NCBI GenBank assembly: GCA_031279415.1
Contig: JAITIP010000020.1
Location: forward strand, 1-63,123
Direction of reading: 5' to 3'
Length of the DNA stretch: 63,123 nt
From: Candidatus Endomicrobium procryptotermitis
GTDB lineage: Bacteria; Elusimicrobiota; Endomicrobiia; Endomicrobiales; Endomicrobiaceae
Below are positions 270-5,698 of the stretch, one piece after another (position 1 is the stretch's first letter; every line of letters starts with the position of its first letter). Below the pieces are notes generated by a model. The model ran no database searches, was not told the origin of the DNA, and saw only the letters and a list, made by a program, of their open reading frames with translations. The position numbers and the translations under genes are program-made.

Positions 270-848
270 TTAAAAATTGTCTGCCAACTCTTCCATAAAT
301 GACTGCGGGTGAAGGCAGGCCGGGCATTTTTCAAGTGCTTGTTTACCTTCATAAACATATCCGCAGTTACGGCATTTCCATCTTATAGGAGCATCTTTTT
401 TGAAAACTCTGTCATTATCCACATTGTCAAGAAGTTCCAGATATCTCGTTTCGTGATGCTTTTCAACTTCGGCAATAAACTTAAAACAGGCCGATATTTC
501 AGGGAAACCTTCCGACTCAGCAACCTTTGCAGCTTCAGGATAAAGTTTTGAATGCTCTTCATTTTCTCCCATAGCGGCAGCTTTTAAATTTTGCGCTGTA
601 GTGCCTATTTTTCCGGCGGGATACATTGCGGTAATTTCAAGGTCTCCTCCTTCCAAAAATTTAAAAAATCTTTTTGCATGTTCCTTTTCATTATCCGCAG
701 TTTCCTGAAAAATGGCCGAAATTTGCTCAAATCCCTCTTTCTTTGCAACAGATGCAAAATAAGTGTACCTGTTTCTAGCCTGCGACTCCCCCGCAAAAGC
801 CTCAAGCAACTTTTTCTCCGTCTTTGTTCCTTTCAATGATTTTGGCAT
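270..848 (-). CDS. rbr: Rubrerythrin
   Basis: 192 aa, the usual length. It is a cytoplasmic non-heme diiron peroxidase that reduces H2O2 with electrons from rubredoxin. The N-terminal four-helix ferritin-like domain (about 1-145) has the two diiron signatures: E-x-x-x-R-x-x-Y near residue 16 and EKEH near residue 54, with a further E-x-x-H near 128. The C-terminal rubredoxin-like knuckle (about 155-190) has CRNCGY and CPAC. It is the last gene of a nine-gene minus-strand operon with superoxide reductase, flavodiiron protein and ferritin, 26 bp after the superoxide reductase gene. This is the classical anaerobe enzyme for removing peroxide. PerR control is inferred from the operon. Confidence 0.97.
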
Positions 849-874: not shown

Positions 875-1315
875 TTAAAGCGTAACTTCGTTATACCAGT
901 CTCCGTGCAAATTACATTTTTCAATTATCTGAATTTTTCCTTTTGTACCTTCTTTAAGATGCACTACGGACGCAGGGTTTACATTCTCCGAAATATCGGT
1001 TGAAGCAATATATTTATTGTCATGATAAAACACGATTCTGACAATATGATGCTCGGCAAGCGACGGATGAAGTATTTCGCCTACTTTTACATGAACGTCT
1101 ACACACCCTTTTCCTTCAATCAACCCGCATTCTTCTACGATCGTAATCGCCGGAATATGTTTTTTTTCACTCTCCCCATTTTCAGACTTATACTCAGGCG
1201 TCTTATACGCGTTTTCTTTTTCGGAAAACATATTTGATAAGTGACATACAGGACAAACGTCCGTTTTTCCATCTAAAGACACATACCCGCAGACTTTACA
1301 TACTAAACCTTTCAT
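875..1315 (-). CDS. Superoxide reductase with an N-terminal rubredoxin-like knuckle
   Basis: 146 aa. The C-terminal part (about 50-146) is the superoxide reductase (neelaredoxin/desulfoferrodoxin) fold, which reduces superoxide to H2O2 without making O2. The iron-binding residues are visible: His in KHIPAI, three His in HPSLAEHHI, and Cys and His in CNLHGDW. The N-terminus has C6-x2-C9 ... C21-x2-C24, a rubredoxin-like spacing rather than the desulforedoxin pattern with adjacent cysteines seen in classical desulfoferrodoxin. It may therefore receive electrons differently. It lies between the flavodiiron and rubrerythrin genes, so the H2O2 it makes would pass to rubrerythrin from the same transcript. 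Confidence 0.9.
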
Positions 1316-1388: not shown

Positions 1389-2579
1389 TTACCCTTTTAT
1401 TTTCAATGCGAACTCTTTTCCGGTTTCATAACATTTTTTGAGTTCTTCATCTGAAGGTGCATAGACGGCTCTTATGCCGTCCAAAGTTTTTTCTATTCCA
1501 GATTGCATAAAAATTTCTTCGATATTTTTCACGCCCTCACCGCTCCATCCGTAAGATCCGAAAGCAAAAGCTTTGCGTCCTTTGGGCTTGAAACCTTTAA
1601 AATAATGTAAAAAACTCGCTATGATAGGAAGCATGTCGTTATCGTGCGTCGATGAACCAAAAACAAATCCTTTGGCATCTAGCATATATGCCGCCAAATC
1701 GGTTTTATTGCATTTCATAATGTCAAACAAAAAAGCTTCAACGCCTTCCGAAGTAATGCCTTCAAGAATCTTTTTTGCCATTTCATATGTAGAATTCCAC
1801 ATCGTTTCATAAACTATGGCAACTTTGTTCACTGTTGAATTTGCCGACCAAAAAAGATAATCATCCCAAATTTTTGAAATATGGCTGCGCCATACCAAAC
1901 CGTGACTCGGAGCAATCATATCTATAGCAAGATTTAATTTTTTAATCGCGTTAAGTTTTATCGTGATAAGATTTCCAAAAGGCCAAAGTATGTTTGCATA
2001 ATATTTTTTTGCTTCTTCCATTAACACGCTGTGATCTACTTCATCGTCAAAAATCTTATTTGTGGCATAATGCTGACCGAACGTGTCATTTGAAAACAAA
2101 ATTTTATCGAAAGATGAATAAGTAAGCATGCTGTCAGGCCAATGGATCATTGGAACGTCGATAAATTCCAAAGTTCTTTTTCCTATATTTATGTTCTGCC
2201 CGAACTTTACCGTGACAAAGTCTCCGCATACTCCGTAATATTTAAGCAGCCCCTGCCTGCTTTTTTCTGTACCGTAAACTTTTGCATTAGGACACAGTTT
2301 GATTATTTCCGCAAATACTCCTGAATGATCCGGCTCTATATGATTTATAATTATCATCTCAATTTTTGAGAGAACTGTAATCTGTTTTATGTTTTCAATA
2401 AAATCTTTTGCAAAATCTTTACAAACCATATCTATAAGTGTTACCTTTTCATCAAGAATAAGATATGAATTATACGTTACACCTCTGTTTGTTCTATAAG
2501 TGCTTCCGTGAAAATTTCTTGTGCCCCAGTCAACACATCCTACAGAATATACATTCTCTTTAATCAAGCGAGCCGCCAT
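1389..2579 (-). CDS. Flavodiiron protein (rubredoxin:oxygen oxidoreductase, FprA type)
   Basis: 396 aa, the size of a class A flavodiiron protein. It reduces O2 to water (or NO to N2O) with electrons from rubredoxin. The N-terminal metallo-beta-lactamase-like domain carries the diiron ligands H-x-E-x-D-H (NHIEPDHSG near residue 80), IHWPDSM, SNDTFGQH and APSHGLVWR. The flavodoxin domain (about 250-396) starts with VAIVYETMWNSTYEMA, the FMN phosphate loop, and later has SYGWSGEG. It has no fused C-terminal rubredoxin; a separate rubredoxin is encoded at 5048-5206 in the same operon and is the likely donor. Confidence 0.96.
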   Translation of the reverse strand: MAARLIKENVYSVGCVDWGTRNFHGSTYRTNRGVTYNSYLILDEKVTLIDMVCKDFAKDFIENIKQITVLSKIEMIIINHIEPDHSGVFAEIIKLCPNAKVYGTEKSRQGLLKYYGVCGDFVTVKFGQNINIGKRTLEFIDVPMIHWPDSMLTYSSFDKILFSNDTFGQHYATNKIFDDEVDHSVLMEEAKKYYANILWPFGNLITIKLNAIKKLNLAIDMIAPSHGLVWRSHISKIWDDYLFWSANSTVNKVAIVYETMWNSTYEMAKKILEGITSEGVEAFLFDIMKCNKTDLAAYMLDAKGFVFGSSTHDNDMLPIIASFLHYFKGFKPKGRKAFAFGSYGWSGEGVKNIEEIFMQSGIEKTLDGIRAVYAPSDEELKKCYETGKEFALKIKG

Positions 2580-2601: not shown

Positions 2602-3105
2602 TCAGTCTTTTTTTCTTTTTCCCAGCTGTCTGTCTATAAATAAGAGGCTTCCTTTAGAGTTGATTGTCATTTCCAGTTGCGCAATTATCGTTTCGACCGC
2701 AGACTCTTCTTCAACCTGTTCATCGACAAACCACTGAAGAAAAGAAAGAGTTGCATAGTCTTTGTCTTCATTGGCAATATTGACCATATTGTTTATCAGA
2801 CCTGTAACATATTTTTCATGATTAAGCGCATCTTTATACATGTCAAGCGCAGTATTCCATTCATGCGGCGGCTGGTCTATCTGTAAAAGTTTTACTCTAG
2901 CGCTTCTTTCCGTCATGTATTTAAAAATTTTATCGCAATGAGAAAGTTCTTCTTCATACTGATACCTGAACCATTGCGCCATACCAATAAGATTTATGGC
3001 ATTGCAACAAGCCGACATCGACAAATAAAGATATGCCGAAAAATATTCATTTCTGATTTGTTCATTTAAAGCGTTATACATTCTTTCGGAAAATTTTCCC
3101 ATCAT
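2602..3105 (-). CDS. ftnA: Ferritin (non-heme, bacterial FtnA type)
   Basis: 167 aa, full length. A four-helix ferritin that stores iron and oxidises Fe(II), limiting Fenton chemistry. Ferroxidase residues are visible: N-x-E-Y in helix A, YEEELSHCDK (Glu, Glu, His) in helix B, and EQVEEE in helix D. It could start at either of the two tandem ATG codons (3105 or 3102). It lies 21-22 bp from its neighbours in the oxygen-defence operon, consistent with iron sequestration as part of the peroxide response. Confidence 0.95.
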   Translation of the reverse strand: MMGKFSERMYNALNEQIRNEYFSAYLYLSMSACCNAINLIGMAQWFRYQYEEELSHCDKIFKYMTERSARVKLLQIDQPPHEWNTALDMYKDALNHEKYVTGLINNMVNIANEDKDYATLSFLQWFVDEQVEEESAVETIIAQLEMTINSKGSLLFIDRQLGKRKKD

Positions 3106-3329: not shown

Positions 3330-3704
3330 TTATTTACCTTTGGATTTATAATTTTCTATTGCTTTATGCAAAGCGGCGGCACCTAAATTTGAACAATGCA
3401 TTTTGTTCGGAGGTAATCCGCCTAAAGCTTCAGCAACTTGAGCATTTGTAAGCTGCATGGCTTCGTCAAGCGTTTTGCCTTTAGCCATTTCTGCTACCAT
3501 TGAAGATACAGCGATCGCGGCGCCGCAGCCAAAAGTTTTAAATTTAACGTCTTCAAGTATATTATCTTTAACTTTAATGTAAAAAGTCATCATATCGCCG
3601 CATATGGGATTACCGACTTCTCCTATGCCGTCGGCATCTTTTATTTCTCCGACATTACGTGGGTTTGCAAAATGATCCATAACTTTTTCCGAATAGAACG
3701 CCAT
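3330..3704 (-). CDS. iscU: IscU/NifU-N type Fe-S cluster scaffold
   Basis: 124 aa, standard length for IscU. The three cluster-ligand cysteines are present: GNPICGDMM (about 35), FGCGAAIA (about 60) and MHCSNLG (about 104), with the conserved Asp after the first. It builds 2Fe-2S and 4Fe-4S clusters on sulfur supplied by a cysteine desulfurase. It lies 78 bp downstream of an IscS-like gene whose product lacks the usual PLP lysine, so the sulfur source in this pair is open to question. AAAAAGGAGAA-type ribosome binding sequence precedes the ATG. Confidence 0.95.
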   Translation of the reverse strand: MAFYSEKVMDHFANPRNVGEIKDADGIGEVGNPICGDMMTFYIKVKDNILEDVKFKTFGCGAAIAVSSMVAEMAKGKTLDEAMQLTNAQVAEALGGLPPNKMHCSNLGAAALHKAIENYKSKGK

Positions 3705-3782: not shown

Positions 3783-5039
3783 TCACTTCTCATCGCAAAT
3801 ATCACAGTGTTCATGGTCATTATCGTCATAATCCGTACCAGGTCCTGCTTTCATTCTGCTGCCTGTTTTAAGAAAATGTGAATATAGCGGTGACATATCT
3901 CTCAGTTTTTGTACAACAGGGGGAAATTCTTCAATTAGATAATCTATCTCTTCTTCGCTATTGTATTTTGAAAGCGTAAACAAAATAGAACCCTGCCCTA
4001 CGGCGACATCCACATTCATTGCGGTTAAAACATGAGAAATTTTAAGATTTTTATTTGCACACGCAGAACCGCTTGCTGCCATAATTCCTTTTGCATCCAA
4101 CAACAAAAACAGAGCTTCACCCTCAACAAATTCTATCGAAAAATTTATGTTTCCCGGAAGACGGTTTTTCTTGCTGCCGTTGAGATAAATGTAAGGGATT
4201 TTTTTTGGGAGTTCTGAAATCAGCTTATCCCTGAGATTTCTCATTTTTTCGGCATTTTTCACCATTTCAGATTTTGCAATCTCGCAGGCTTTTGCAAATC
4301 CTGCTATAGCCGCAACATTTTCTGTTCCTGAACGTTTCGAATTTTCTTGAACCCCGCCTTCAATCTGTGGCGTAATTTTTACGCCTTTTTTAAGATAAAG
4401 CGCAGCCGCGCCTTTTGGCCCGTACATAACGGAAGCGGAAAAAGTTAACGCGTCAACACCGAAATCTGCTGCATCAATGGGAATCGTCCCACATGCACTT
4501 ACCGCGTCCGTATGAAAAAGTGCTTTGCTTTGAGATTTAACTATTGAGACAAGTTTTTTGATATTTTGAATTGTGCCGACTTCCGGGTTTGCAGTCTGGA
4601 TTGACACTAAAATCGTATCATTTTTCAACGATTTTTTAAGTTCTTCCTCAAAAATGTTTCCCTCCTTGTCAACCGGAAGATAAGTTATTTCAAAACCGTC
4701 TTTTTCTAGTCTTCTTGCCGCATTCAATATTGAAATATGTTCTATGGCGGATACTATTATATGCTTGCCTGACTTTTTATAAGCGTCCGCAATACCTTTC
4801 AGCGCCAGATTATTTGATTCCGTCGCGCATGAAGTAAAAATTATTTCTTCTGGCTTAATGTTTATTAATGTGGCAACCTGTTTTCTGGCTTCTTCAACAG
4901 CATTTTTTGAAACCGAACCCAAAGAATAAATGCTTTGTGGATTACCATAATAATCCAAAAAATACGGTTTCATTGCTTTAAAAACATTTTCGTCAATTTT
5001 TGTATTTGACTGATTGTCAAAATAAATCTGTTTCATCAT
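3783..5039 (-). CDS. NifS/IscS-like cysteine desulfurase homologue lacking the PLP lysine
   Basis: 418 aa, an aminotransferase class V fold. Retained features are ATESNNLALKG, the stacking His in AIEH, HTDAV with the PLP Asp, KRSGTEN, and the active-site loop GSACANKNLKISHVL with its Cys. The position of the Schiff-base lysine is changed: the family has S-x-H-K-x-x-GPKG, but here it reads FSASVMYGPKG, so His-Lys has become Ser-Val (Val204, codon 4428-4430). The Gln after the PLP Asp and one Asn in the ANPEVG segment also differ. The reading frame is intact. The C-terminus adds an acidic, Cys/His-rich tail (HEHCDICDEK). It lies next to iscU and rubredoxin. It may be non-canonical or inactive as a desulfurase. 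Confidence 0.85.
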   Translation of the reverse strand: MMKQIYFDNQSNTKIDENVFKAMKPYFLDYYGNPQSIYSLGSVSKNAVEEARKQVATLINIKPEEIIFTSCATESNNLALKGIADAYKKSGKHIIVSAIEHISILNAARRLEKDGFEITYLPVDKEGNIFEEELKKSLKNDTILVSIQTANPEVGTIQNIKKLVSIVKSQSKALFHTDAVSACGTIPIDAADFGVDALTFSASVMYGPKGAAALYLKKGVKITPQIEGGVQENSKRSGTENVAAIAGFAKACEIAKSEMVKNAEKMRNLRDKLISELPKKIPYIYLNGSKKNRLPGNINFSIEFVEGEALFLLLDAKGIMAASGSACANKNLKISHVLTAMNVDVAVGQGSILFTLSKYNSEEEIDYLIEEFPPVVQKLRDMSPLYSHFLKTGSRMKAGPGTDYDDNDHEHCDICDEK

Positions 5040-5047
5040 CGTTTCCT

Positions 5048-5206
5048 TTATATCTTTTCAAACATTTCCTTGCTTACGCCGCAGATAGGGCAAGTCCAAT
5101 CATCGGGAATTTGCTCAAAAGGCGTTCCCGAAGCTATTCCTGAATCTGCATCACCTGTTGTAGGATCATAAATATAACCGCAGGCCGAACATTTCCATTT
5201 TTCCAT
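5048..5206 (-). CDS. Rubredoxin (52 aa)
   Basis: Found by reading the minus strand between the IscS-like gene and perR. The ATG is at 5206 and the TAA at 5048-5050, giving 52 aa, the classical rubredoxin length. It has the two iron-binding knuckles [10 protein letters not shown] (Cys6, Cys9) and [10 protein letters not shown] (Cys39, Cys42). A GGAGG-type ribosome binding site lies just upstream. It is a small one-electron carrier and the likely electron donor to the rubrerythrin, flavodiiron protein and perhaps superoxide reductase in the same operon. The gene is 42 bp after perR and 8 bp before the IscS-like gene. Confidence 0.95.
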
Positions 5207-5248: not shown

Positions 5249-5659
5249 TTATCCTTTTTTATTATCACTTTTGCAAGCTTTGCAAACGCCGCTGTAACAG
5301 ATAAAAACATCCTCTACTTTATGCCCATCAATAGCGTGTTTTAAAATATTTTTATAGCATATTTTCACATCGTATATTCTTCCGCATTTGCTACATACAA
5401 AATGGCAATGAGGTTCGGTATTCGCATCAAAACGCATTTCGGAATTCTTCATTTTAATACATTTTATTATTCTTTCTTTGACAAGTTTATTAACCGTATT
5501 ATATATAGTAGTTTTGGAAACCGTGGGAATATCTTTAACTATCCTTTTATAGATATTATAAGCCGTAGGATGGGAATCAGTATTCATAAGAAATTCTAAT
5601 ATCTTCCTGCGTTGAAAAGTCTGCCTTAAACCTAATGATAAAAACTTATTTGTAATCAT
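5249..5659 (-). CDS. perR: Fur-family peroxide regulator PerR
   Basis: 136 aa. An N-terminal winged helix (GLRQTFQRRKILEFL through TVSKTTIYNTVNKL, about 10-75) is followed by the dimerisation and metal domain. RFDANTEPHCHFVC holds the Asp and two His that form the Fe/Mn-sensing site in PerR, and CSKCG plus CYSGVCKAC form the structural zinc site. It represses by binding AT-rich Per boxes until iron-catalysed His oxidation releases it. It is the first gene of the oxygen-defence operon, consistent with autoregulation. Fur itself is a less likely alternative, because the sequence around the sensing site is PerR-like. Confidence 0.9.
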   Translation of the reverse strand: MITNKFLSLGLRQTFQRRKILEFLMNTDSHPTAYNIYKRIVKDIPTVSKTTIYNTVNKLVKERIIKCIKMKNSEMRFDANTEPHCHFVCSKCGRIYDVKICYKNILKHAIDGHKVEDVFICYSGVCKACKSDNKKG

Positions 5660-5666
5660 TACAATT

Positions 5667-5698
5667 TATAATTATAGCAAATAATTTTATTCTGTCAA
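5667..5698 (-). promoter_or_regulatory. Consensus sigma-70 promoter of the perR operon with overlapping AT palindrome
   Basis: On the minus strand, TTGACA (5693-5698), a 16-bp spacer and TATAAT (5671-5676) precede perR. The -10 is embedded in the perfect palindrome TATAATTATA (5667-5676), which resembles one half of a Per box (TTATAAT). A regulator bound there would block RNA polymerase, so PerR autoregulation of the nine-gene operon is a reasonable inference. Confidence 0.75.

Follow-up and report, generated by a model that had tools for sequence, protein, structure and literature searches.

A lysine-less IscS as the probable assembly partner of the only recognised iron–sulfur scaffold in Candidatus Endomicrobium procryptotermitis

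The IscS-like protein encoded beside iscU in Candidatus Endomicrobium procryptotermitis is, by comparison with its homologues, probably a desulfurase-dead IscS serving IscU as an assembly partner (a probability of roughly 60%), and a role as cysteine desulfurase is very unlikely. In textbook ISC assembly, the partner bound to IscU must be a cysteine desulfurase. The one scaffold system recognised in this genome has an IscS partner that lacks the residues for this chemistry but keeps its cysteine and is under strong selection. Proteins of this kind are already known from Archaeoglobus fulgidus IscS, in which the lysine is replaced by aspartate; the bacterial spread, the coordinated loss of residues, the sole-system status, the operon and the lineage-specific His/acid-rich tail are new here. 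The K-less (lysine-less) IscS and its partner have the following features in the window, that is, the whole stretch of 63,123 nucleotides that was analysed.

3783 to 5039, minus strand: K-less iscS, 418 amino acids (open reading frame; Pfam Aminotran_5 2e-76; NCBIfam FeS_nifS 476 bits)
4428 to 4430, minus strand: codon GTT of Val204, at the PLP-lysine position (E. coli K206; sequence and alignment)
4059 to 4061, minus strand: Cys327, the persulfide or cluster-ligand cysteine (kept in 109/109 K-less homologues)
3981 to 3983, minus strand: codon of Leu353, at the position of the substrate-binding arginine (E. coli R354; alignment column)
3786 to 3845, minus strand: His/acid-rich C-terminal tail, residues 399–418, predicted to be disordered
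3330 to 3704, minus strand: iscU, encoding the scaffold; the genome has no other NifU_N protein (TIGR03419)

The iscS frame is intact over 418 codons from an ATG start, and Cys327 sits in the active-site loop SGSACANKN, as the sequence-only reading of this DNA had stated for both the frame and the loop. Canonical class V cysteine desulfurases read LSxSxHKxYGPKG at the PLP-lysine site. The window protein reads S-A-S-V where S-x-H-K is expected (context LTFSASVMYGPKG), and the GTT codon confirms that valine stands in place of the lysine. A shifted alignment masking the lysine was ruled out, since GPKG, Ser201 and the flanks align gap-free there. The earlier reading had also named the Gln that follows the PLP Asp and an Asn contact as differing; these positions hold Ser181 and Pro152, respectively. 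One loss was absent from the earlier reading, namely, Leu353 at the aligned position of E. coli R354, the arginine that binds the substrate carboxylate. As a candidate class V cysteine desulfurase, the protein thus has the Cys loop and the class V aminotransferase fold (Pfam 2e-76; AlphaFold and Foldseek) and is without the lysine and the substrate arginine, and it scores under the NCBIfam equivalog cut-offs (FeS_nifS, 476 versus 530.75 bits; IscS, 376.9 versus 643.2 bits). The fold, Cys loop and PLP-ring contacts are common to canonical IscS/NifS and the window protein, whereas the Lys, the substrate Arg and the Gln, His and Asn contacts are lost in the latter.

Loss of the lysine is coordinated with loss of R354 and, largely, of Q183 and H205. 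Residue statistics were obtained from 167 aligned homologues (58 K-bearing and 109 K-less), many of which are near relatives within the family; in this set, the R354-equivalent column separates the two groups perfectly, with Arg in 58/58 K-bearing and 0/109 K-less proteins. Q183 is kept in 57/58 K-bearing versus 6/109 K-less sequences, H205 in 58/58 versus 8/109 and N155 in 57/58 versus 21/109, and Cys328, Asp180 and His104 (E. coli numbering) are invariant in both groups (n = 167). The E. coli IscS variants K206A, H104Q and Q183E are each without desulfurase activity (PMC9978102). Together with these mutant data, the residue losses indicate that desulfurase chemistry has very likely been lost, with the Cys and the contacts to the PLP ring retained; the earlier reading that the protein does not work as an ordinary desulfurase is supported.

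PLP may still be bound non-covalently by the K-less IscS, without Schiff-base chemistry on cysteine, since the ring contacts Asp178 and His101 are invariant, and such strict invariance would be odd if PLP were wholly unneeded. The same two residues, together with the retained PLP binding and Cys-adduct formation of E. coli K206A (PMC9978102), could be read as signs of another kind of PLP enzyme, acting without a Schiff base on cysteine or another substrate with a different residue as the base. We regard this as improbable. The carboxylate-binding arginine is gone in 109/109 K-less homologues, and the Lys site drifts among V, A, S, T, I and Q, so that no conserved replacement base or substrate anchor is present there.

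All 77 family genomes examined have a match, approximately 60 of them with a high-scoring ortholog. Every ortholog read in family f1 is without the lysine (mostly V, with a few A, S, T or I), which answers the proposal that homologues in related genomes be aligned, and H-K, Q and R are all present in every paralogous canonical copy that was read in this family. Gln stands at the Lys site (e.g. SGSQFYGPKG) in other families of the class, as well as in some elsewhere in the phylum. Pairwise dN/dS of the gene within the family is about 0.08–0.2, indicating purifying selection. A pseudogene, or a sequencing or assembly error, was therefore ruled out: nothing favours it beyond the missing lysine itself, and the K-less state recurs with low dN/dS in independent genomes of more than 20 genera across the phylum and elsewhere, which excludes chance or sequencing error and leaves this explanation a negligible probability.

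Genome contigs were also scanned with an alignment whose first sequence was the A. fulgidus protein. Among the best 80 matches, a sample rather than a census, K-less homologues were found in Bathyarchaeota, Lokiarchaeota, Methanocellales, ANME-2, Stahlbacteria, Dehalococcoidia, Clostridia, Acidobacteria, Thermodesulfovibrionia, Aquificaceae and others, and they mostly adjoin iscU. In a tree built without the trait columns (quick search, SH-aLRT support only), two well-supported K-less clades were recovered, namely, an archaeal D/E type including A. fulgidus (100) and a bacterial Q/V/L/R/P type (99) in which the window protein falls. A single origin of all K-less proteins was neither demonstrated by this tree nor rejected when they were constrained to one clade (p-AU 0.195).

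The partner scaffold scores above the TIGR03419 (NifU_clost) cut-off (210.4 versus 187.9 bits) and keeps Cys35, Asp37, Cys60 and Cys104. It had been called a normal IscU, which is right for these residues and not for its affiliation, as the alignment places it in a distinct, co-diverged subfamily that travels with K-less IscS. Compared with the partners of canonical IscS, the diagnostic positions are Met38 (V/I), Val66 (S/T), Asn100 in the LPPxK motif (V/I), Asn106 (V) and Gly108-Ala109 (A-E). The earlier suggestion of a partnership with IscU is borne out, and the partnership is conserved.

The window genome (2.0 Mb, rated 100% complete) contains one NifU_N protein, and genome-wide searches that gave matches in control genomes found in it no second IscU, no SufB/D and no IscA-type protein (PF01521, 0 matches). 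On these counts, the K-less IscS and IscU form the only recognised Fe–S scaffold system, bearing in mind that a genome rated complete can miss a contig or hide an unrecognised scaffold. One canonical, K-bearing NifS is encoded elsewhere (C6:27647-28813), unlinked to the K-less iscS; the second canonical iscS that the sequence-only reading had advised looking for is thus present. A census of 49 family genomes at least 85% complete gave a similar picture: nearly all have a single full-length NifU_N, SufB/D occurs in 7 of the 49, all of one genus, and most have one IscU and no SufB/D. Of 29 further phylum members, those belonging to the class mostly combine a single NifU_N with the absence of SufB/D as well. 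A small number of genomes (G276 within the class, and some beyond it) have two NifU_N genes; several of them combine a canonical IscS–IscU pair with a K-less one. As a separate observation, genus g13 (G065–G071) has a single distant SufB/D-like protein of approximately 313 amino acids that was found in no other genus of the family, and a canonical iscS adjoining the K-less iscS.

Several described systems resemble the window pair, and the idea that this class is unprecedented was not sustained: Archaeoglobus IscS, Methanosarcina acetivorans IscS1 and the PDB 9WFY series all exist. A. fulgidus IscS (IscS 2; structures PDB 4EB5, 4EB7 and 4HVK, and D199K mutant 4R5F) is without desulfurase activity (PMC7585200), and in its solved complex, IscS Cys321 ligates a [2Fe-2S] cluster on IscU, the D35A variant of IscU having been used (PMC9769115). 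It shares with the window protein the IscS fold, a replaced lysine (Asp199; SSNDIYGPKG), the retained Cys loop, work with IscU, Leu at the R354-equivalent and a replaced Q183-equivalent. The window protein has the marks of the A. fulgidus kind: the lysine is lost, the cysteine is kept and the gene adjoins iscU. The two proteins differ in that they are 45% identical, carry Asp versus Val at the Lys site and belong to different K-less clades, and the solved A. fulgidus sequence is without the AGPGTDY-His/acid tail. In addition, A. fulgidus encodes the SUF-like SmsC (PMC12192291), whereas the window genome has no SufB/D. M. acetivorans IscS1 is likewise reported to be without the catalytic lysine and encoded with IscU (PMC7585200); unlike the window protein, it is archaeal, belongs to one of three IscSU pairs and is insoluble if expressed alone.

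Among bacterial proteins, the Aquificaceae-like IscS of PDB 9WFY carries Leu in place of the Lys and Val in place of the Arg, the state also seen in natural Aquificaceae, and its relatives are placed with the window protein among the bacterial K-less sequences. Entries 9WEP, 9WER, 9WEW, 9WF8, 9WFB and 9WFE differ from the window protein in having Lys, and some also Arg, at the catalytic positions. The 9WEP–9WFY series looks like a stepwise reactivation (reversion) study, with Leu/Val changed to Lys/Arg, and the six Lys-bearing entries therefore suggest that biochemical work on the K-less kind exists; our literature search found no paper on the series or on bacterial K-less IscS. Finally, the minimal ISC system (MIS; MisS–MisU) is, like the window pair, a two-gene IscS–IscU unit without the carrier IscA, and in the window genome, iscS and iscU are adjacent and PF01521 has no match. 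MIS has been described with a cysteine desulfurase, whereas the IscS paired here is without the catalytic residues.

The A. fulgidus complex fits a structural or cluster-ligand role better than a regulatory one. This precedent is weakened by the position of A. fulgidus IscS in the other, archaeal D/E clade, and the ligand role of the cysteine may be partly an artefact, since the complex was obtained with IscU D35A. The main rival to a cluster ligand is a persulfide relay, in which persulfide would pass from the canonical NifS to Cys327 and on to IscU, the K-less IscS being a trans-persulfidase derived from a dead desulfurase. Canonical iscS, K-less iscS and iscU are clustered on one strand in at least four lineages, including genomes of genus g13/g14 (L075, L172, L173 and L182–L185), G282 (L056:4486-7550), a Hydrothermarchaeote (L083:2574-5600) and Dehalococcoidium (L144:2318-7000); in L186, also of g13/g14, canonical and K-less iscS are clustered and the contig ends before iscU. 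Such clusters in several lineages fit the earlier suggestion of a carrier fed by another desulfurase, and the Cys loop of K-less IscS is invariant. With canonical NifS in practically all of these genomes, a relay is compatible with much of the data. Against it, nifS and the K-less iscS are unlinked in the window genome and most relatives, and the solved A. fulgidus complex is without such a donor. We consider the relay possible and of rather low probability, and prefer the assembly partner that contributes a ligand.

The AlphaFold model of the K-less IscS (28 sequences) has a mean pLDDT of 89. The Cys loop (326–330) is the only internal stretch with pLDDT below 50, as expected of a mobile loop, and residues 221–240 average 65–74. 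The top Foldseek matches were human NFS1 complexes and A. fulgidus IscS (4HVK, 4R5F and 4EB5), with rmsd of 1.3–1.9 and, for 4HVK/4EB5, a TM of 0.97 by target. At the C-terminus, K-less orthologs of the lineage share the extension xKTGxRxxAGPGTD[YF], after which His and acidic residues alternate; exact GPGT occurs in 52 of the 63 lineage K-less rows listed, with a near match in several others. The tail HEHCDICDEK had been singled out as unusual and Cys/His-rich. It is lineage-specific, the AGPGTD[YF]-His/acid tail being found in 0/46 K-less proteins outside the lineage, and it is not private to this protein, as nearly all lineage K-less orthologs have it and a terminal HC motif is common in the protein's own family. 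Metal binding by the tail is a guess.

The pair lies in a minus-strand cluster in the order perR-type regulator, rubredoxin, K-less iscS, iscU, ferritin, fprA, desulfoferrodoxin-type gene and rubrerythrin. The neighbouring features in the window are as follows.

5671 to 5698, minus strand: promoter TTGACA-16-TATAAT with TG before the -10 (extended -10; 12/12 sigma-70 consensus matches)
5650 to 5664, minus strand: PerR-box-like 7-1-7 inverted repeat TTGTAATGATTACAA, overlapping the perR start codon (2 mismatches to TTATAATNATTATAA)
5249 to 5659, minus strand: PerR/Fur-family regulator (Pfam FUR; best NCBIfam PerR, 93.7 bits, under the cut-off)
5048 to 5206, minus strand: rubredoxin, 52 amino acids, 8 bases before iscS (CxxC...CPxC motif in translation)
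2602 to 3105, minus strand: ferritin (Pfam 1.6e-41)
1389 to 2579, minus strand: FprA-type flavodiiron protein with ODP and flavodoxin domains (Pfam)
875 to 1315, minus strand: desulfoferrodoxin-type protein with an N-terminal Cys4 rubredoxin-like domain (Pfam)
270 to 848, minus strand: rubrerythrin (NCBIfam RuberyRbr 299 bits, cut-off 200)

Intergenic gaps in the cluster are 8–78 bases, except for 224 between iscU and ferritin, and the genes from perR to rubrerythrin are probably cotranscribed. The repeat is a perfect 7-1-7 and the promoter lies directly 5′ of it (5650–5698), a sequence arrangement that points to probable autoregulation of a PerR-type operon whose leader is very short. The desulfoferrodoxin-type protein carries the metal-domain motif CKVCGY...CPVC at its N-terminus and scores under the NCBIfam desulfoferrodoxin cut-offs. 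The oxygen-stress operon described by the sequence-only reading is borne out by the PerR-type regulator and the oxygen-defence neighbours. In a survey of 70 K-less and 44 K-bearing loci, rubrerythrin, desulfoferrodoxin, flavodiiron, ferritin or PerR genes were near 27/70 versus 0/44 (Fisher p about 2e-7, uncorrected for relatedness).

Sharing a cluster with such genes could point to a regulatory decoy that keeps IscU inactive under oxygen stress. The K-less IscS is, against this, the only IscS adjoining the genome's only IscU, and a decoy would have no need of an invariant cysteine. The regulatory role raised earlier has nothing positive beyond the operon, and we hold it to be highly improbable.

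As the assembly partner, the K-less IscS, which retains the IscS fold with its mobile Cys loop, would most likely form an (IscS)2(IscU)2 complex with IscU. Cys327 would reach into the IscU site and supply a fourth ligand to the nascent [2Fe-2S] cluster, the other three being IscU cysteines, and sulfur would come from free sulfide, or as persulfide or sulfide from cysteine via the separate K-bearing NifS. As the only recognised scaffold pair, the two proteins would make essentially all cellular Fe–S clusters, and location in a PerR-type operon would fit the rebuilding of clusters after oxygen exposure. We extend this tentatively, as less likely than not, to many anaerobes, including most of the bacterial class, in which the obligatory partner of IscU may be a desulfurase-dead IscS that gives a Cys ligand, and perhaps iron via the His/acid tail, rather than sulfur, with sulfide or an unlinked desulfurase supplying the latter; a once exceptional archaeal case would then become a general mode of Fe–S assembly. 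Confirmation of the assembly partner in the window genome would mean that IscS has a second, separable function in cluster assembly, as ligand or sulfur acceptor, that can carry a whole organism, and many proteins of anaerobes annotated as cysteine desulfurases would not be desulfurases. The K/R pair offers a simple sequence test for separating desulfurases from desulfurase-dead IscS.
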